Shown piece by piece: positions 9,568 to 38,752 of a DNA stretch of 39,215 nucleotides (within the stretch, counting starts at the first letter, position 1; each line of letters opens with the position of its first letter). Source of the DNA: a virus; IMG/VR virus record IMGVR_UViG_3300024433_000018, positions 1 through 39,215 of that record; one strand, written 5' to 3'. The notes beneath the pieces are model-generated. The model did no database searches. It saw nothing but the letters and a program-made list of their open reading frames with translations, and was not told the origin of the DNA. The translations under genes were made by a program, and so were the position numbers.

Positions 9568-11619
9568 ATGGCTGATAATATAGATTGGTCTCAATATGAA
9601 GTTAAAGATAACAATCAAGGTAATGTAGATTGGTCTCAATATGAAGTTCAAGATGATAATGCCGATCAACCACAAGAATCTAATCAAAACATGAGCGGTG
9701 AACCACAATCGCCTCAAGAAGACCCTATGGCTGGTTTTTATAAAGGCTTGCAAGGCCATATGACAAAACAACTTTTGCCAGGTAGAGGGTCAAGCAATCA
9801 ATCGACTGAATTAAATACTGGCCTAACAGGTATAGCAACTGATGTATCTCAAATGTTTAGAACAGCTTTACAGTCAGCTAAATCATTTATAAATGATATA
9901 CCTACAATGAGAGCAGATTTAGTTGATGAATTTGTTGATAACCCAGGTAAAGCCGCATATCAAACAGTAGGGAACTTTGGCTCAAGATTAGCTAGTATTG
10001 GTAAAGGACTAGCAAATACACCTTCTGACCTTATGCAATATTTAGGGAAAAAAGAAGTTATTCCTGACGAACTAAGGGATTTAAGCAAAAAGATTATTCC
10101 ATCACTTCCCGAAGATACTGGTTTAGAGAAAGCTTTAGGCATAGATGACAGCGATAAATATAGGTTAGCAAGAGGTGCTGCTGATGTGGCTTTGGGTGGA
10201 AGCGCAGCTAAATCATTATTTAACGCAGGTAAAAAAATAATTTATGAGCCATCAAAAAACATGAAGTTTGAAATGGCATTAAAAAAAGAGATAAATACCG
10301 CTAAAGAAAAATATGATTTAACTGGCGAGCAATTGGAGAAGCTAGAAAACAAGCTACGCTTAGAATATTCTGGCGAAAACGCTTCAAGAATTGGCGAAAA
10401 GACCCCTACAGGCCAGCAGGAAACAATTAATGTAAAACAGGGGCAAATTAGAGATATTGATGAAAAATTAGAAGGTGCGACCAATATACCCACTGAAAAG
10501 CCTAAAGCACCAGATTTAAAAGGGGCTAACGAATCCTTAGCTAAAGCCCTTGATCATAAAGCAGACCATTCTTATCATGGCGGTCAAGAATATAAGAAAG
10601 AGGTTGCTAAAGATAAAGCTGTTGCTACCAATCTATATGAGACATATAAAGATGAAATCTCTAAACTGAAGATTAAGGTTGATAATACTGCTGAGATTAA
10701 GGCGGCGACAAATGAGCTAAAAGACCTAGCTGCAAATGATGAATTCTTTGAAGGCGAAGTCTCTAGGAGAAGCGAGATTTTAAATCATATTAAATCTCTT
10801 GAGAACGAAACAGTTGAAGCCTCTGACGTATTTTCAACAAAAAGGACGCTTGACCATATAGTACATGAAATAAGGGATAAACAATTCTCTGGTGTATCAG
10901 ATAATGAATTTAAAAGATTAAAAAAGCTAGGAGACAATTTATCAGCGCAAGCTAAACATTTAGATAAATTACTCGATACAGTAACCCCTAAAGAATTGAA
11001 GGGTATGCTGAAAGATGCTAATAAAATATGGTCTAAATATTCCGATATACGTTATCACCCTGTTGGTCAGCGTTTTATGAAAAAAGGCTCTGGGGTTATG
11101 CCGCCTGATATGATGTCTAAACTTAAAACGGATTTACCTGGTACTGATTACTTAAATGAGATCATGGCAAGAAATCCTAAGATTGAAAAACATGTTTTAT
11201 CACAAAAATATGCAAAGCCTAGCAAGTTTAAGGACTTAATTGATCCCACTGAAGAAGTGATACCTTACTTACAAAAAAGAGACGACTTGCACCCTCACAT
11301 TGAGAATCTGCGAGATACACAGTTTGAGCATGAGCAATTTAAAGAGCTATCAGAACAGTTTAAACTTGTTAAGCAGAAAGAAAAGTTGGCTGCTGAAATT
11401 GAGTCTCATAAAAAAGCCATTCCTCAACTAGAGAAGCAGATTGCAGAGAAAAAAGCTGCTGGCAAGGACTGGAAGGAATTACAAAAAAAACTGGATAACC
11501 ATCGAGAAGAACGGGCAGCTAAAGGCGGTAAGTTAAAAGAATTAACTGGACTACTTTTGAAAGTCAAAGGTGCTTCATCATTCCTCAGTGGGAAACCTGA
11601 AAAAAGAGGCAGAGATTAA
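9568..11619 (+). CDS. Probable DNA ejection protein (P22 gp16-like position, 683 aa)
   Basis: This large, Lys/Glu-rich, mainly helical protein contains two copies of DWSQYEV near its start (residues 5-11 and 20-26). It also has a Gly/Ala-rich hydrophobic stretch near residue 200 and long coiled-coil-like segments from about 230 to the end, such as KQIAEKKAAGKDWKELQK. It fills the gp16 slot of the ejection set that P22-like phages send into the host envelope. The repeated start motif resembles short linear tags in other phage and secreted proteins; its role is unknown. No lytic transglycosylase motif is visible. Confidence 0.55.
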   Translation: MADNIDWSQYEVKDNNQGNVDWSQYEVQDDNADQPQESNQNMSGEPQSPQEDPMAGFYKGLQGHMTKQLLPGRGSSNQSTELNTGLTGIATDVSQMFRTALQSAKSFINDIPTMRADLVDEFVDNPGKAAYQTVGNFGSRLASIGKGLANTPSDLMQYLGKKEVIPDELRDLSKKIIPSLPEDTGLEKALGIDDSDKYRLARGAADVALGGSAAKSLFNAGKKIIYEPSKNMKFEMALKKEINTAKEKYDLTGEQLEKLENKLRLEYSGENASRIGEKTPTGQQETINVKQGQIRDIDEKLEGATNIPTEKPKAPDLKGANESLAKALDHKADHSYHGGQEYKKEVAKDKAVATNLYETYKDEISKLKIKVDNTAEIKAATNELKDLAANDEFFEGEVSRRSEILNHIKSLENETVEASDVFSTKRTLDHIVHEIRDKQFSGVSDNEFKRLKKLGDNLSAQAKHLDKLLDTVTPKELKGMLKDANKIWSKYSDIRYHPVGQRFMKKGSGVMPPDMMSKLKTDLPGTDYLNEIMARNPKIEKHVLSQKYAKPSKFKDLIDPTEEVIPYLQKRDDLHPHIENLRDTQFEHEQFKELSEQFKLVKQKEKLAAEIESHKKAIPQLEKQIAEKKAAGKDWKELQKKLDNHREERAAKGGKLKELTGLLLKVKGASSFLSGKPEKRGRD

Positions 11620-29034: not shown

Positions 29035-29400
29035 ATGGCAATGTCGAACGAACATCAACCAACGGACGAGCTACGGCAACGTATCACAGACTTAGTGCGC
29101 AGCGGTACGCCAAAATATATTATTAGCGAAATAGTCGAGCTTGATACTGAAACTATTACAAAACATTATCGCAAAGAGTTAATGACAGCTAAGTCAACGG
29201 CTATTGAACGCATCGGGAAAACTGTTTATCAACAAGCGTTGGACGGAGATGTTAAGTCGCAAGCACTGTATCTTAAAACACAAGGCGTTGATCACGGATG
29301 GATTGAAAAGCACGTGATTGAAACAAAAAATGCGGATGAGATAAAAGAACTTAAAGATACTATCACTGATTTAGAGCAAAAATATCAGCGTGATTATTAG
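29035..29400 (+). CDS. Candidate small terminase subunit / HTH DNA-binding protein (121 aa)
   Basis: The N-terminal helix-turn-helix (PTDELRQRITDLVRSGTPKY, then IISEIVELDTETITKHYRKEL) and the following GKTVYQQALDGDVKSQALYL resemble a group of phage proteins annotated as small terminase or packaging regulators. It lies 6.7 kb from the large terminase, not adjacent as in P22. TerS would recognise pac and load TerL; alternatively it is a transcription regulator. Confidence 0.5.
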   Translation: MAMSNEHQPTDELRQRITDLVRSGTPKYIISEIVELDTETITKHYRKELMTAKSTAIERIGKTVYQQALDGDVKSQALYLKTQGVDHGWIEKHVIETKNADEIKELKDTITDLEQKYQRDY

Positions 29401-29435: not shown

Positions 29436-30008
29436 TTATTGTAAGAGCTTGCTAATGCTCGGGCGGGATAATTTCATTGCCCGTGCAATTTGCGATATAT
29501 TTAAACCCTGCTTAGATAGTTCGATTGCTTCTGATCTTCGGGACATATCCAAGGGCTGTTTTCCAAAGGGTTTACCCGTTTTTGTTCCGTTTTTCTTTGC
29601 GTGCGCTATTCCCTCGGCTTGTCGCTCTAACATTATATTGCGTTCAAATTCAGCGAACGCACCCAGGACTTGAAGCATCATAGTGTTTAATGGGTTCGGG
29701 TCTGTTTTACAATATGTTTGCGATTCCTTGATGAATTTGACTGTCACGCCTTTGCTGACTAGCTCCTTAAGTATCGCTTGAAGGTCTGACAAGCTACGTG
29801 CTAAACGATCAATACTATATATATATAGTATATCGCCATTTCTTGCGTAGTCTATGCAAGCTTGTAGCTCTGGACGCTCTTTATCTTTACCCGAAAGTTT
29901 ATCCGTAAAGACTTTATCGAGTGCTAAGTTTGCCATGCCTTCTGTCTGACGGCCAGTCGATTGCTCACGTGTTGATACTCTAATGTACCCGATCTTTTGA
30001 CTAGTCAT
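29436..30008 (-). CDS. Serine recombinase, resolvase/invertase type (190 aa)
   Basis: Small serine recombinase: GYIRVSTREQSTGRQ at the N-terminus with the catalytic Ser at about residue 12, then IDRLARSLSDLQ and AEFERNIMLERQAEGI. A C-terminal helix-turn-helix (LNISQIARAMKLSRPSISKL) binds the crossover site. It is of the Tn3 resolvase/invertase length, so it more likely resolves multimers or inverts DNA than integrates. No inverted pair of sites is obvious in the window. Confidence 0.88.
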   Translation of the reverse strand: MTSQKIGYIRVSTREQSTGRQTEGMANLALDKVFTDKLSGKDKERPELQACIDYARNGDILYIYSIDRLARSLSDLQAILKELVSKGVTVKFIKESQTYCKTDPNPLNTMMLQVLGAFAEFERNIMLERQAEGIAHAKKNGTKTGKPFGKQPLDMSRRSEAIELSKQGLNISQIARAMKLSRPSISKLLQ

Positions 30009-30274: not shown

Positions 30275-30303
30275 TTGACACTTAAACTAAGGTTTACTAC
30301 TAT
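30275..30303 (+). promoter_or_regulatory. Rightward promoter of the accessory region with palindromic operator
   Basis: TTGACA and TACTAT are separated by 17 bases; the spacer holds TTAAACTAAGGTTTA, a near match to the palindrome in the 28.6 kb promoter. It drives a roughly 430-base untranslated leader ahead of the small-gene array. Confidence 0.7.
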
Positions 30304-30739
30304 AGCCACATGGTTAGGTACTAGCTATTGAATGGACTGCTAGCCATAGCCACACATACCTAGCTCATGCCTGTAGGGTAGGGGGTTACACATGCCTTGA
30401 GCGATCAGGGGGGTATGCCCCAGAACAAAGCACCCCCCTCTACGATGCGGAGGCTCCACCCCTCACACACCAAAACCAATTTCCAAAATCCAAGCTCAAA
30501 TCTTACACAAATATTACTACTATCCTCTAATAATTCCCCCCCCCTACCAAACCAATTTCAAGAATTTATGATCAAAAAAAAATCATCAATCTTTCCATAA
30601 AAATTCCCCCAAAAATTCCAAAACTCCTGAACTTTTTTTAACCAACAATAACCCCCCAAAATTTCCCAGAAAATTTTCAAAATTGCCCGTAAACAAAAAA
30701 TAGTTTAATCTAGCGTTTTTAATCTCAAGGAGCATCATT
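30304..30739 (+). other. Long untranslated leader with a C-rich, G-poor segment
   Basis: No gene is supported here. After the promoter, partial repeats of ATAGCCACA occur near 30302 and 30345. Bases 30481-30690 hold 61 C and only 7 G on the plus strand, with several runs of five to eight C. The one frame across it (starting at a TTG near 30397) shows no coding pattern. It may be a structured or protein-binding leader. Confidence 0.5.
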
Positions 30740-33959: not shown

Positions 33960-34117
33960 TAAATAAGGTTAAGTGTTTTCTGTTGGGTCACAAGTACGTT
34001 ATAAAGTACTACACAGAATGGGCTTATGACTTATACAAAAAAAGCTACGATAGAACGGTAGCTATTCCCACATGTACTAGGTGCGGCAAGCGAGCCACGG
34101 CTGTAAACGATAAATAG
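33956..34117 (+). CDS. DUF1660-like small zinc protein (53 aa)
   Basis: CFLLGHKY near the N-terminus and CTRCGKR near the C-terminus follow the DUF1660 pattern CxxxGHxx...CxxCG found in phages. Probably one zinc site. Its start overlaps the membrane protein stop by three bases. Confidence 0.6.
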   Translation: MINKVKCFLLGHKYVIKYYTEWAYDLYKKSYDRTVAIPTCTRCGKRATAVNDK

Positions 34118-34118
34118 A

Positions 34119-34132
34119 TAAACTATAGTTTA
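34119..34132. promoter_or_regulatory. Perfect palindrome TAAACTATAGTTTA
   Basis: Fourteen-base perfect palindrome with the same TAAACT half-sites as the spacer palindromes at 28.6 and 30.3 kb. Weak boxes flank it (TAGATA 34115-34120 and TATAAC 34138-34143, 17 apart), so it may be a weak promoter or a stand-alone operator ahead of 34184. Confidence 0.55.
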
Positions 34133-34183
34133 CTAAATATAACATTTAGTATATAGTGCTGCTTTTATTAAACAAGGATTGTA

Positions 34184-34396
34184 ATGTCAAACGAGTTATT
34201 TGAATCATATACCACTTATAAATTTTTAAGAAAAATATTAAAGCTTTTCCAAGACCTAACAACTCCAACTGTAAGTAATGCAGCTACCAAGCGATTTTAT
34301 TTAGAGCTTCAGGAATCAATTAATAAATTTGACTATGACGACCCCCGTTATTTAAGACGATATTTAGAAGAAAAACACCAGGAGAAAAGGCTATGA
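34184..34396 (+). CDS. Small helical protein (70 aa), unknown
   Basis: MSNELFESYTTYKFLRKILK then polar helices, ending in a basic tail. AAGGA precedes the ATG. ATGA overlap to the next gene. First gene after the palindrome. Confidence 0.52.
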   Translation: MSNELFESYTTYKFLRKILKLFQDLTTPTVSNAATKRFYLELQESINKFDYDDPRYLRRYLEEKHQEKRL

Positions 34397-34581
34397 CCGA
34401 TGAACAAAGAGCCAATATTATGTATTGCGGTGATGGCGTTTATGCAGAGTTTGATGGCTATGGCTTATGGCTAAGAGCCAATCATCATAAAGACAGCCAA
34501 TGTACCGATAAAGTTTATTTAGAGCCTTCCGTACTGCGCAGAGTAAACGAATTTTTTGAAAGAAGAAAAAAGGGGCTATAG
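34393..34581 (+). CDS. Small protein (62 aa), unknown
   Basis: A strand-rich start (DEQRANIMYCGDGVYAEFDG) and a basic C-terminus. Overlaps the previous gene. No family recognised. Confidence 0.52.
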   Translation: MTDEQRANIMYCGDGVYAEFDGYGLWLRANHHKDSQCTDKVYLEPSVLRRVNEFFERRKKGL

Positions 34582-34582
34582 C

Positions 34583-34828
34583 TTGACTCTTTACATGGAT
34601 GACATGAGTTACATTACTGATAAGGACGTGATTATGGATATTAAAGATTTAAAAACTTACTGGGCTAAAAAATATCCCCAGGTAGACGTTAATATTTGGG
34701 ATAGATATGACAAGGATGGGTATATAGGATCAATATCTCATAATGGCGAACGTGCAGATATATCAGCCGATACACTAGGTAAGCTAATTATTAAAGGCGA
34801 AGATTTTTTAAGAAAAATAAAAAAATGA
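34583..34828 (+). CDS. Small protein (81 aa), start uncertain
   Basis: Begins at a TTG eight bases after AAAAGGGG, or at the ATG at 34595. The sequence from MDDMSYITDKDVIMDIKDLK is alpha/beta with NIWDRYDKDGYIGSI, an Asp-rich loop like a partial calcium site. ATGA overlap into the IS66 TnpA-like gene. Confidence 0.48.
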   Translation: MTLYMDDMSYITDKDVIMDIKDLKTYWAKKYPQVDVNIWDRYDKDGYIGSISHNGERADISADTLGKLIIKGEDFLRKIKK

Positions 34829-35388
34829 TAGATGATGTACAAATAAACGTTCCACTGCAAACTAAACTTACAGATGATGAAATTATGCACTGGTATAACC
34901 ATTTGCTTGATTGGAAAACAACAAATGTAAGCGGAAAAATTTACGCAGAAAGACATAATTTAAACCATAAGAAATTAGGGAACATGGGGAAAGCATTGTT
35001 AAGTTGCTCTTATACCAACCCCAAAAAATATCAAAAGTTAATATCGTTAGGCAAAGAATATCTTAACGGCAATGAGCCTTTAAAAGATTTCTGCAAAAAA
35101 CATCAAATAGAAGAAACGGTAATAACTAACATAGCAACGCATATTAAATACCTAGCAAGGATTAAAGAAATTATGAATAAAAGCGAACCAGTAGAGCCAG
35201 AACCAATGAGCTTTATTCAAGTTCCAAAAACTACAAAAATGTCAGAGCCTACAAGCCCAGAAGCGGAGGTGGTCGAGAAGAAAAACGATATCGAATTAAT
35301 TGTAGATAGGAATGTAAAAGTAATCCTATCACCGCAAATTGCTAGCGAAAAAATAATAAAGATAATTGAATTTTTAAAGGAACTATAA
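34825..35388 (+). CDS. IS66 TnpA (Orf1)-like protein (187 aa)
   Basis: The layout matches IS66 accessory proteins. The first helix-turn-helix (residues about 16-45) has WYNHLLDWKTTNVSGKIYAE, and a second similar unit follows near residues 72-100 (EYLNGNEPLKDFCKKHQIEE). The C-terminus, IELIVDRNVKVILSP then IIKIIEFLKEL, is the typical end domain. It directly precedes a TnpB-like gene with no transposase (TnpC) and no inverted-repeat ends, so it appears domesticated. Confidence 0.7.
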   Translation: MIDDVQINVPLQTKLTDDEIMHWYNHLLDWKTTNVSGKIYAERHNLNHKKLGNMGKALLSCSYTNPKKYQKLISLGKEYLNGNEPLKDFCKKHQIEETVITNIATHIKYLARIKEIMNKSEPVEPEPMSFIQVPKTTKMSEPTSPEAEVVEKKNDIELIVDRNVKVILSPQIASEKIIKIIEFLKEL

Positions 35389-35739
35389 ATGTTAATACCA
35401 TACGAAAACAAAAATATATATATCGCATCTAAACCAGTTGATTTCAGAATGTCCATCGATGGACTATCAGGGTTTATTCAAAGAGAAAAGAATACCCATT
35501 TGCACGATGGTTCTATATACGTTTTTTACAACACCAATAAAGATAAAATTAAATGTCTATTCTGGGATAGAAACGGCTTCGTGCTGTATTACAAAAGATT
35601 AGATAAATGCAGATTTAAGCTTAAAGACAGGCTTAATGCCGTAGAGTCAATGACCGCAGAAGAACTAGAAATTCTATTATCTGGCTTTGAACCAACTAAT
35701 CAATCCAGGCAAAAAGTGTATTTGGAACATAAAGCTTAA
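35389..35739 (+). CDS. IS66 TnpB (Orf2)-like protein (116 aa)
   Basis: A clear member of the IS66 TnpB family: NIYIASKPVDFRMSIDGL at the N-terminus, then SIYVFYNTNKDKIKCLFWDR, NGFVLYYKRLDKCRF and a C-terminal LTAEELE-type helix. The ATG follows the TnpA-like stop with no gap. The third IS66 gene, TnpC transposase, is absent and a promoter and tRNA follow. The function of TnpB in IS66 is itself unknown. Confidence 0.88.
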   Translation: MLIPYENKNIYIASKPVDFRMSIDGLSGFIQREKNTHLHDGSIYVFYNTNKDKIKCLFWDRNGFVLYYKRLDKCRFKLKDRLNAVESMTAEELEILLSGFEPTNQSRQKVYLEHKA

Positions 35740-35741
35740 CA

Positions 35742-35770
35742 TAGACACTTAAAAAAAGTTTTACTATACT
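35742..35770 (+). promoter_or_regulatory. Promoter for tRNA-Asn and downstream late region
   Basis: TAGACA and TATACT are 17 bases apart, with CTTAAAAAAAGTTTTAC in the spacer, a degenerate version of the palindromic spacers at 28.6 and 30.3 kb. The predicted start, about seven bases after the -10 box, is at the first base of the tRNA gene. Confidence 0.7.
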
Positions 35771-35778
35771 TAACCTAT

Positions 35779-35850
35779 TCAGGAGTAGTTCAGAGGCAGA
35801 ACGAGTGACTGTTAATCACTATGTCGAAGGTTCGATCCCTTCCTCCTGAG
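35779..35850 (+). tRNA. tRNA-Asn (anticodon GUU)
   Basis: A full cloverleaf of 72 bases: acceptor TCAGGAG/CTCCTGA, D stem GTTC/GAAC, anticodon stem AGTGA/TCACT with loop CTGTTAA giving anticodon GTT, variable ATGTC, T stem GAAGG/CCTTC with loop TTCGATC, discriminator G. CCA is not encoded and would need the host enzyme. AAC codons may be frequent in the phage, but I have not counted. Confidence 0.93.
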
Positions 35851-35856
35851 CAAAAA

Positions 35857-35958
35857 CGGGGAGAACCCAGAAAACTGTGGGGGCATTAACCCATGCTGCG
35901 GATTTTGTAGAACGTGATACTGCCGCCTGATAGATGAAAGTTCTATCCTCCCCGACCA
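35857..35958 (+). ncRNA. tRNA-like RNA with encoded CCA end
   Basis: A cloverleaf can be drawn: acceptor CGGGGAG/CTCCCCG followed by A and CCA, arm CCCA-8-TGGG, arm GGCAT-6-ATGCT, long arm GCGG...CCGC, arm GATAGA-7-TCTATC. It lacks U8, the D-loop GG and a normal TTCRA T loop, and its anticodon-like loop has six bases (TAACCC). It may be a degenerate tRNA or a tRNA mimic. It lies six bases after tRNA-Asn. Confidence 0.5.
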
Positions 35959-36057
35959 TCTTCTTTAATTTTACACCTATTTAGCTACCAACTTACCTGA
36001 TTTTATATCAACTTTATTTCAGTTTAGATGGTTTTTAATAAATTTTATGGTATTTTA

Positions 36058-36093
36058 ACCATGTAGCGTGACTCCTATTACTCGCTACATGGT
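36058..36093. other. Perfect 11-bp inverted repeat upstream of the terminase start
   Basis: ACCATGTAGCG (36058-36068) and CGCTACATGGT (36083-36093) are separated by 14 bases. It lies 38 bases before the likely TerL start. It could be an operator, a hairpin in the mRNA leader, or part of the packaging (pac) site. Confidence 0.5.
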
Positions 36094-36130
36094 ATGCATG
36101 ATGCATTTTTGGCAAAGGATTGCCCCATCG

Positions 36131-38752
36131 ATGGATAATGATCAAAACTTAAAATTTGAGAATGCTGAGATTGCCGCTAAATTAAAGGGTAGTCTTTTGC
36201 TATTCATCCAAGCTTTCTTCCCCATCCTAACGGGTAGAGAGTTTATCATCTCCCATCCCATCGGCAGGGAAAGCCATTTCATTACCATTTGCCGAGCATT
36301 AACTAAATGTACACGCCTACAAGCATTACGGCTTTTGATAAACGTACCCCCTGGCCATGGTAAGTCTGTAATTGTAAGTTTCTGGATAGCCTGGTGCTAT
36401 GCCAAATGGCCTGACTGTAACTTTCTGTATATCTCATACTCTAAAACACTGGCCACAAGCCACACAGAAACGATTAAACGCATTATGCAGCTTAGTCAGT
36501 ACAAACTATTATTCAATGTTCACCTGCGTGACGATTCACAAGCCAAAGATGCATTTACCACCGAAGAAGGCGGCACTGTAGCAAGCTTTGGTTCTGCTGG
36601 TGCGATTACTGGTCGCAACGCTGGCTTGCCTGGTCTAAAAAGATTCAGTGGGGCTGTTTTATGCTTTCCTTGGGATGAATATGTACAGACAGAAAATGGT
36701 GCAATTAAAATTGGCGAAATAGTCGATAAGAAAATGAATCTGAAGGTTTATTCCGTTAATTTAGAAACCAACGCAGTTGAGCTAAAACCAATTATAGGCC
36801 ATTTTGAAAATCCTGGCAGTCCAATTGTAGAAATAGAATTTAGTGATGGCGCACTCATACGATGTACGCCTGATCATAAAATTTGGACTGATAATCGAGG
36901 ATGGATTGAGGCTAAAGATTTATTGATCAGCGACAAGCTTCCTACGCCAACGCCATATAGTCCTTTGCGGCACACCAATGATAGCCGCACATTTTCTTTG
37001 CGAAATACTAAGGTCTTTAAGCGCATTCAACTCATTACTAGAAAGATGCGTAAACTTGCAACTAATATTGCGCTTCCCAATTTTTTCCCTTGCAGCCTCA
37101 GTCTCCGAAGCCCTACTATCACCACGCCTGATTTTCTGAATGGTAAGAGAACTGGTGTTAAATTTTTTAGCAAGGTCTTTTGCGGAAAGTGGACTCAAAA
37201 CAAACTCAATAACTTCTTTAGTGGCGAACTTGGCACAGGGATGACGCTCACCCATGGAAAAAGTCCCATGACAAATAGAGTCAGCAATATTTTCAGATCG
37301 AGTTCCATACCTCAAGTTTTCTGGTCTATTATCAAGTGCATCACCATTAATATGGCATACATCATACCCTTTAGGTTGTTCTCCGCAAAAAGCCCATGCA
37401 ACCAATTGATGAACAAAAATATTTTTTTTCAAGGTCGAGCAAGTAATCCTTGTCCAAAAGTATTTTCCGCCATTCTTAAGAGTAAGTTTTTTAATTTTTT
37501 GAGGTTCAATCCGGTAACTTCGGTTATCGCCATAATAAACAGTTCTTTGTTCCGATCTAATTCTTCCAAAACTAGATGCGCTATACAATCCATCAAGTCC
37601 AGGAATAAGTCGCCACTCTTCATTCGTTATATTGGTCATGTTAATAAATCCTATTGTATAAATGTGGAAACCCATCATAACTTCTTCTGCGGCACAAGTG
37701 AAGACAAATTTACGCTTGTTCAGAACTGCGACGATATGCATAAGCCAGACGAAGTTCATTCAGATTTAGTACGAGAATCTGTAATAACCAACTTCCGTGA
37801 AACTATCCAGATGCGTCCACGGGGCGTAAATGTTCCCATCATATTTATTGGTCAGCGATTACACGAGCAAGATTTACCTGCTTTTTTCATTGCTGGTGAA
37901 GATGGCTATGAATGGGATAAAGTCATTTTAAAATCCATTGATGATGCTGGCAATGCTCTTTACCCAGAAGCCTTTCCCCTGGATATGTTAAGGATTAGAC
38001 AGACGAAAGACAGGTATGTATTTGCAGCGCAGCACCAGCAAGACCCTCAACCCGCTGGCGGTGGTTTATATACACCAGAAGATTTCCCTTTACTGGCTGA
38101 AGAACCAGAGTATTACATTACATTCATCACGGCTGACACGGCTGAAACCGAAGACCCCAGAAATGATGCTACCGTATTTTCCTTCTGGGGAATGTATAAC
38201 ATTGAAACTCAGGGGCGTAAGACTGGCGTAATGGGACTGCATTGGATTGATTGTCGTGAGATACGAGTTGAGCCTAAAGATTTAGAACGTGAATTTTTAG
38301 ATTTCTGGCAGGAATGTGGACGGCATCCAAATCCACCTCTTATAGCTTATATAGAGAAGAAATCAACGGGCGTTACACTAATCTCAATCCTAAAGAATAT
38401 GCGTGGTTTAAAAGTCAGAGAGATTGAGCGAACCCGTAAATCAGGTAGTAAATCACAACGGTTTATTGATATCCAGCCATACATTGCCAGCAAGCAAGTA
38501 TCACTACCATCACACGCACCTCACACAGAAATATGCATAAATCATATGAAAAAAATCACAAACAATGATTCCCACGCACATGACGATATTGCAGATACTT
38601 GCTCAGACGCAGTAAGAATAGCACTTATAGATAAAAATCTGACTATGTTTACCAACAAAAATATTCAAAGCAGAAGCGCAACAATACAAGCGTTAAATAG
38701 ACATAACAATGTTATCAAGCTTAAAGAACGAGCTTATAAGATAAGGAAATAA
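36131..38752 (+). CDS. Large terminase with an in-frame intein (873 aa precursor, 518 aa mature)
   Basis: The ATPase/nuclease motor that packages DNA through the portal. Walker A NVPPGHGKSVIV is near residue 79. The extein sequence GAVL-CDDMHKPDE is the Walker B region, split exactly by an intein (36662-37726). The nuclease domain shows FITADTAETEDPRNDATVF and a final DDIADTCSDAVRIA. After splicing the product has 518 residues, near the 499 of P22 gp2. I start it at the ATG at 36131 (AAAGGA upstream), not the GTG at 36068, which lies in the inverted repeat. Confidence 0.9.
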   Translation: MDNDQNLKFENAEIAAKLKGSLLLFIQAFFPILTGREFIISHPIGRESHFITICRALTKCTRLQALRLLINVPPGHGKSVIVSFWIAWCYAKWPDCNFLYISYSKTLATSHTETIKRIMQLSQYKLLFNVHLRDDSQAKDAFTTEEGGTVASFGSAGAITGRNAGLPGLKRFSGAVLCFPWDEYVQTENGAIKIGEIVDKKMNLKVYSVNLETNAVELKPIIGHFENPGSPIVEIEFSDGALIRCTPDHKIWTDNRGWIEAKDLLISDKLPTPTPYSPLRHTNDSRTFSLRNTKVFKRIQLITRKMRKLATNIALPNFFPCSLSLRSPTITTPDFLNGKRTGVKFFSKVFCGKWTQNKLNNFFSGELGTGMTLTHGKSPMTNRVSNIFRSSSIPQVFWSIIKCITINMAYIIPFRLFSAKSPCNQLMNKNIFFQGRASNPCPKVFSAILKSKFFNFLRFNPVTSVIAIINSSLFRSNSSKTRCAIQSIKSRNKSPLFIRYIGHVNKSYCINVETHHNFFCGTSEDKFTLVQNCDDMHKPDEVHSDLVRESVITNFRETIQMRPRGVNVPIIFIGQRLHEQDLPAFFIAGEDGYEWDKVILKSIDDAGNALYPEAFPLDMLRIRQTKDRYVFAAQHQQDPQPAGGGLYTPEDFPLLAEEPEYYITFITADTAETEDPRNDATVFSFWGMYNIETQGRKTGVMGLHWIDCREIRVEPKDLEREFLDFWQECGRHPNPPLIAYIEKKSTGVTLISILKNMRGLKVREIERTRKSGSKSQRFIDIQPYIASKQVSLPSHAPHTEICINHMKKITNNDSHAHDDIADTCSDAVRIALIDKNLTMFTNKNIQSRSATIQALNRHNNVIKLKERAYKIRK
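36662..37726 (+). mobile_element. Intein in TerL Walker B site (355 aa)
   Basis: The first intein residue is Cys in CFPWDEYVQTENG (block A). Block B is IRCTPDHKIWT with the TxxH pattern. Block F is YCINVETHHNFF and block G is FTLVQN followed by extein Cys. The penultimate residue is Gln where His is usual. The N-terminal splicing part (about 86 codons) and the C-terminal part (29 codons) are separated by 240 codons that are the antisense of an HNH endonuclease gene. The frame is open throughout. Confidence 0.88.
36920..37639 (-). CDS. NUMOD4/HNH homing endonuclease, antisense inside the intein (239 aa)
   Basis: NUMOD4 (EEWRLIPGLDGLYSASSFGR, residues 7-26) is followed by an HNH_3-type core with VHQLVAWAF (76-84) and CHINGDALDNRPENLRYGTR (95-114): His96, Asn104 and Asn108 fit the motif. 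Two C-terminal helix-turn-helix-like segments follow (LAKKFNTSSLTIQKI and CAAIIGVPQRTIWRW). The ATG at 37639, nine bases after AGGA, is preferred to upstream starts. It would cleave intein-less terminase genes. Its codons pair exactly with the sense intein codons. Confidence 0.88.
   Translation of the reverse strand: MTNITNEEWRLIPGLDGLYSASSFGRIRSEQRTVYYGDNRSYRIEPQKIKKLTLKNGGKYFWTRITCSTLKKNIFVHQLVAWAFCGEQPKGYDVCHINGDALDNRPENLRYGTRSENIADSICHGTFSMGERHPCAKFATKEVIEFVLSPLSAKDLAKKFNTSSLTIQKIRRGDSRASETEAAREKIGKRNISCKFTHLSSNELNALKDLSISQRKCAAIIGVPQRTIWRWRRKLVADQ

Follow-up and report, generated by a model that had tools for sequence, protein, structure and literature searches.

Domesticated transposon proteins are parts of mobile elements that have been kept by selection after the mobility of the element was lost. 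The locus described here differs from domesticated transposon proteins in general, because a pair of accessory proteins was kept instead of the catalytic transposase. IS66 elements encode the same two accessory proteins, TnpA and TnpB, in the same order, with genes that overlap or touch as they do in the phage pair. Unlike IS66, the phage pair is not accompanied by TnpC, has no element ends that could be found, is kept in phage operons, and forms a clade of its own. The part of PMC3281130 that concerns insertion sequences with multiple ORFs, of which IS21 and IS66 are typical, states that the roles of the small ORFs are not known. Searches of the open-licence full-text literature yielded no description of IS66 TnpA and TnpB standing alone as a pair in phages. 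The protein families are known, and what appears to be new is the standalone, selected, phage-borne pair with a duplicated helix-turn-helix (HTH) unit. The likeness of this TnpB to the RNA-guided nuclease TnpB of IS200/IS605-type elements is limited to the name, and no relation between the two is suggested.

The stretch of DNA that was analysed, referred to as the window, is 39,215 bases long and constitutes one virus record. A direct repeat of 150 bp, 99% alike in its two copies, is present at both ends, and the window therefore looks like a complete circular genome from which nothing was cut off. It carries the genes of a tailed phage, among them those for a portal, a head protein, tail proteins, RecE, RecT, SSB, a DnaB-type helicase with its loader, and TerL. 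The preliminary description had placed two coupled ORFs between positions 34825 and 35739, and both are present exactly there (Table 1). The coupling is evident from the start of tnpA, which lies inside the end of the preceding ORF, and from the ATG of tnpB, which directly follows the TAA of tnpA with zero gap. The small gene in front of tnpA also occurs in phages that lack the pair and is therefore a marker of the host locus, outside the cassette. RecE, RecT, and SSB are encoded approximately 14 kb from tnpA-tnpB. The intein of the TerL in the window belongs to PF14890, and a homing-endonuclease ORF runs antisense within the intein stretch. The TerL proteins of most relatives are intein-free and 518 aa long; that of L034 has 873 aa.

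Table 1. Features of the window around the tnpA-tnpB pair and at related sites.
Feature	Position	Strand	Remarks
tnpA-like gene	34825..35388	+	ORF, 187 aa; IS66 TnpA homology
tnpB (IS66 Orf2-like)	35389..35739	+	116 aa; PF05717, E 1.6e-29
Small phage gene	34556..34828	+	3' end overlaps tnpA start; found also in pair-lacking phages
tRNA-Asn(gtt)	35779..35851	+	39 nt 3' of tnpB; opens the tRNA/RNA-repair stretch that many relatives have after the pair
terL	36068..38752	+	Intein-interrupted; downstream landmark of the locus; Pfam and PHROG searches
HNH/NUMOD4 homing-endonuclease ORF	36920-37759	-	Within the intein stretch of terL
Palindrome TAAACTATAGTTTA	34119..34132	+	In the gap before the gene cluster leading into tnpA-tnpB; putative operator, same type as at two early promoters
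First early promoter	28659 to 28624	-	Palindrome in spacer
Second early promoter	30275 to 30310	+	Palindrome in spacer, common to both promoters
TerS candidate	29035-29400		Far from terL
Serine recombinase gene	29436-30008	-	Beside the TerS candidate

The TnpB encoded in the window matches PF05717 with 102.2 bits, at a curated cut-off of 26.6, and this is the only family above its cut-off for the 116-residue protein. An alignment of 44 TnpBs, 30 of phage type and 14 of IS66 type, contains nine invariant columns (D18, R20, L26, F46, K55, G63, K69, L71, and G99), and the mean column identity of TnpB is 73%. The structure model of TnpB has a mean pLDDT of 80.3. A Foldseek search with this model found no match at E<=0.001 in the PDB or among viral models, and a sequence search against solved structures returned nothing better than E 0.16. 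The best rows of a VIA-align comparison were YTH and EVE domains, which are modified-base readers, with weak scores (Z 3.3-4.9, rmsd 3.6-7.5).

The TnpA of the window has no Pfam family and no PHROG match better than E 0.07. The NCBIfam model of IS66 TnpA, NF047593, matches 17 of the 20 aligned phage members at E<=10, including the window protein, with a best E of 2.6e-11; the window protein alone scores E 5.7e-4 and 20.3 bits, under the curated cut-off of 28. A profile of 25 phage TnpAs aligned by hhalign to a profile of 11 IS66 TnpAs with 96.6% probability and an E of 5.9e-10 over 93 columns, which cover the HTH and the C-terminal piece. By this profile comparison, which settles the identity, the first ORF of the pair is an IS66 TnpA, and the C-terminus alone gives a weak hhalign match of 19% to the IS66 C-terminus. 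The preliminary description of IS66 TnpA and TnpB homologues lying back to back thus holds for both genes, through PF05717 for TnpB and through profiles for TnpA.

In the AlphaFold2 model, TnpA consists of tandem HTH units at residues ~17-58 and 66-119, a disordered linker, and a C-terminal beta-beta-alpha piece at residues 156-186. The mean pLDDT of the model is 84.8, with values mostly of 93-97 in the HTH blocks, and the helices span residues 17-33, 37-43, and 48-58 in HTH1, and 66-81, 86-93, and 97-119 in HTH2. The two units align to each other by hhalign with 96.9% probability and an E of 2e-10, and by this sequence comparison they are duplicates; the 11 aligned IS66 TnpAs show one HTH, whereas the phage TnpA has two. 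Each half has HTH proteins as its structural neighbours, for example DesR, TrpR, ArdK, DeoR, and sigma region 4, all with Z of 3.7 or less. In the 300 pairs formed by 25 TnpA sequences, each HTH shows a median identity of 23%, and the C-terminus one of 59%. Fast-changing HTHs combined with a conserved C-terminus and a conserved TnpB are, as far as alignments can tell, the pattern of a rapidly evolving DNA reader placed on a constant effector. Searches of viral contigs and of phage records with TnpA only gave no matches, because TnpA diverges too fast. In L051 (337-1485), the HTH pair occurs twice within one TnpA, and no TnpB is present in its 10.6 kb; this long TnpA may indicate that TnpA has uses of its own. 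L035 carries an extra TnpA-like gene (10072-10458) that contains the HTH pair only, without the C-terminal piece.

The first scan identified relatives of the window TnpB on 26 viral contigs, and a profile scan added five more (L031-L035); a sixth new locus from the profile scan, L036, proved to be a genuine IS66 carrying TnpC and was used as a control. The pair is thus carried by 31 further viral records, which answers the proposal in the preliminary description that phage genomes be searched for it. At all 31 loci, TnpB is directly preceded by TnpA or, where the contig stops short, by the tail of TnpA; at the 26 loci of the first scan, TnpA was recognised by blastp in 25 and by profile in L025. 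A scan based on TnpA gave 21 loci, every one of them on a contig already known for its TnpB. The two genes overlap or touch in the 26 junctions listed, which include that of the window. The record counts exceed the number of independent cases, as L003/L004, L007/L008, and L009/L010 are near-duplicates. L028 and L030 are truncated by the ends of their contigs. TnpB matches were also found in 16 GenBank phage records, of which the four annotated ones are true IS66 elements with TnpC, and the other 12 are without annotation.

The neighbours of the pair fall into two types, in line with the suggestion that conserved neighbours be looked for. In most records, the pair is positioned near TerL and tRNAs, away from recombination genes, and in the TerL-linked relatives it is often followed by tRNAs, an RNA ligase (PF09414), RtcB (PF01139), or a phosphoesterase. 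This stretch between tnpB and terL, in which the phosphoesterase is of calcineurin type and a conserved protein of 135 aa is also encoded, was observed in L002 (1926-2423), L060 (587-1864), L068 (3642-4859), L051 (1495-2016), and L004 (3257-3664). The 135-aa protein has no Pfam hit and looks like a macro domain, and the stretch is possibly a tRNA-repair island. Among the seven placements that are not beside terL, six have single-strand annealing genes near the pair (raw count). ExoVIII, RecT, and a helicase are followed by tnpA within ~10 bases in L017, ExoVIII-RecT is near the pair in L033, Sak4 with a Cas4-type exonuclease and a helicase in L023, and Sak4-like genes in L019, at ~4 kb, and in L024; RecT-SSB directly precedes tnpA in L196, and the seventh placement, L025, is cut. 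That the annealing genes come from different families makes the association more interesting, yet recombination genes are frequent in early phage regions.

Five sites of the operator-type palindrome (Table 1) are present in the window at <=1 mismatch, against 0.33 expected, and none of 100 shuffles reached five. The family operator TAAACYNNRGTTTA occurs in 14 of the 47 phage records that were searched, and the reversed control pattern had no matches in all 47. A palindrome of this kind lies a short way upstream of the operon in several relatives that carry the pair, and it also occurs in three of four relatives without the pair (G040, G045, and G054). TnpA was considered as the binder of the palindrome in front of the operon and was rejected because the palindrome is present in these three. 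Judged by its distribution, the palindrome is more likely the operator of a regulator other than TnpA, which suggests that a regulator of the phage itself controls expression of the pair. A scan of ten window proteins showed no CI-type repressor.

The alternative that retains the most weight, although we consider it improbable, is that the pair is a transcription regulator of the phage, with TnpA as the operator-binding protein, TnpB as its co-regulator, and the tRNA/RNA-repair stretch, TerL, or early genes as targets. The predicted tandem HTH is consistent with such a role, as is the gap with an operator that precedes the operon in the window and in several relatives. However, the same operator type is present in the relatives without the pair, and the operator is nearly constant, whereas the HTHs of TnpA have the low identity given above, so that another regulator probably binds it.

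Two trees bear on the origin of the pair. In the first, the phage TnpBs form one group of 31 rows against 19 IS66 rows, with a support of 99/93, and in the second, the phage clade comprises 31 rows against 32, with a support of 100/98. Beside the phage clade stand seven IS66 TnpBs (87/92); the genomes that encode them belong to the order of a metagenome-assembled genome (MAG) titled 'Legionellales bacterium', and the other IS66 TnpBs are placed outside. TnpB matches are present in 36 of 143 genomes of that order, some of which have ten or more copies, and a TnpC match was found at 23 of the 25 loci fetched from it. The boundaries of a related IS66 of this order could be delimited in genome G194: the element is 2469 bp long, has 8-bp target duplications in six of six copies examined, and its ends begin GTAAGCGCTTAATTAACC. 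In a Legionellales-titled MAG (L038, G029), a fragment of a phage-type TnpB (L030) and a TnpC-bearing IS66 occur together. A single capture from an IS66 of the Legionellales order is the probable origin of the pair; the direction of capture is likely rather than proven, because the tree rests on 117 columns, many of its forks are open, and the Legionellales rows do not form one clade.

The pairs of this phage clade are closest to IS66 elements found in multiple copies in the probable host order, which raises the question of whether the phage uses the pair against them. The pair could compete with or poison transposition complexes and so keep IS66 out of the phage DNA, and the part that is missing from it is exactly the catalytic one, TnpC. 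Nevertheless, if the pair imitated a host element, it would be expected to retain the DNA target of that element, whereas the HTHs of the phage TnpA are far diverged and duplicated. Furthermore, the window has no site resembling an IS66 end, and the host assignment is based on one MAG title and a tree. We regard such a defence as unlikely.

The pair is not present in all phages of this type. The window and 12 records of at least 35 kb, the TerL of which is at least 79% identical, comprise eight carriers, four near-complete genomes of the same terL type without both genes (L045, L052, L061, and L076), and one that is cut; L054, which ends at the contig end inside tnpA, was excluded from the count of presence and absence. 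One of the eight carriers, G048, has the pair elsewhere in its genome. Gene-level comparison of L045, L052, and L076 shows the small gene that otherwise precedes tnpA followed by other genes, which represents an empty site. Because four close relatives lack the pair and empty sites are seen, the tnpA-tnpB pair is accessory, and it moves as a unit. Accessory presence, variable position, a fast-changing TnpA, and the RNA-repair genes in the stretch of the relatives would also fit an anti-defence protein or another factor that counters the host, carried as cargo of a variable locus. There is no match in PADLOC, which covers defence proteins and not anti-defence, and we give this explanation somewhat less credence than the defence against IS66.

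The preliminary description called the pair domesticated, held that it lacks TnpC and recognisable element ends, and named TnpC or inverted ends in related genomes as signs of a decaying IS66 copy. A PF03050 (TnpC) search of the whole window, with stops read through, found nothing at E<=1, and the same search was negative in all 32 records that carry the pair. This set consists of the window with the 26 contigs of the first scan and the five later ones, with G048 outside it. A search identical in kind detected TnpC in 15 of 17 ordinary IS66-type viral records, which served as a positive control. Window positions 34100-36100 contain no inverted repeats of 12 or more bases, and the window has no match to the terminal repeat of the multi-copy IS66 of G194 with up to 5 mismatches in 22. 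The search for flanking ends covered the window and three AT-rich relatives, in which the inverted repeats were low-quality and of chance type, without any shared bracketing of the pair. L130 and L131, which are one sequence on two viral contigs, carry an ordinary IS66-type TnpA-TnpB pair without TnpC, beside genes on the opposite strand; this pair could be a fragment, or a further standalone case of independent origin.

Selection on the pair was estimated from pN, the median of which in the same 66 sequence pairs is 0.18 for tnpB, 0.47 for tnpA, and 0.12 for terL. The highest pN/pS among 406 pairs of tnpB sequences is 0.48; since synonymous sites are largely saturated, pN/pS is a rough measure. 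By these estimates, tnpB is under strong purifying selection and TnpB evolves nearly as slowly as TerL. Because of this selection, the single phage clade, and the lack of TnpC in the 32 records scanned for it, the pair is, on the sequence comparisons, domesticated and not a dying IS66 copy. The preliminary description does not mention the duplicated HTH, the likely donor order, the presence or absence of the pair among relatives, or the recombination genes near it in other phages. The opposite explanation, a remnant that lost TnpC and its ends recently and in which the two genes are passengers, could draw on the clear IS66 homology and the frequency of IS66 in the likely host order. It is nonetheless very improbable, as the 32 records have intact frames and a conserved overlap under purifying selection, there is no trace of TnpC in them and no repeat in the window, and the gap between the TAA of tnpB and the tRNA is 39 nt only.

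The least plausible explanation, that TnpA is the small terminase subunit, is ruled out even though an HTH protein is encoded just upstream of terL in the window and directly adjacent to it in L022 and L026, because four near-complete relatives with terL at least 79% identical lack the pair, and homologues of another ORF (TerS candidate in Table 1) are positioned directly before terL in L079, L080, L081, and L111. As the candidate adjoins terL in these distant phages, the packaging genes appear to have been pulled apart in the phage group of the window.

Based on the domain layout, the gene order, and the selection on the pair, a mechanism can be proposed. We give a probability of about one half to the reading in which an IS66 TnpA-TnpB pair, captured probably once from an IS66 of the Legionellales order, has been kept, exchanged, and adapted without its transposase, and forms an early-operon complex that acts at DNA sites in phage DNA metabolism or in local gene control. 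From the absence of TnpC, the selection, and the single clade, we infer an independent use of the pair by the phages. TnpA would be the DNA-reading subunit, as predicted from its fold, and the targets of its two HTHs would change quickly between phages. Its conserved beta-beta-alpha C-terminus may hold TnpB, as conservation and gene order suggest. TnpB would be the conserved effector, which acts on an unchanging partner such as the DNA backbone, a recombination protein, or a host protein, and its activity probably needs no transposase, since it has been selected without TnpC. Expressed from a regulated early operon, the complex would most likely act on specific sites of the phage DNA in the early phase, either in recombination or replication or in the control of the surrounding genes; the neighbouring genes suggest recombination. 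More tentatively, and against the odds, TnpB may have a transposase-free activity of its own that phages use, in that a complex aimed by the fast-evolving tandem HTH brings TnpB to chosen DNA sites for recombination or replication.

TnpA and TnpB can be assayed in IS66 only through transposition, and the phage pair without TnpC isolates their joint role. Since selection has kept TnpA and TnpB without TnpC, their binding, their partner, and the effect of their deletion are open to study separately, and elements of the donor type, which are multi-copy and have clean ends, are at hand for comparison. If TnpB does have such an activity of its own, the 'accessory' proteins of IS66 would be a portable machine for loading at DNA sites.
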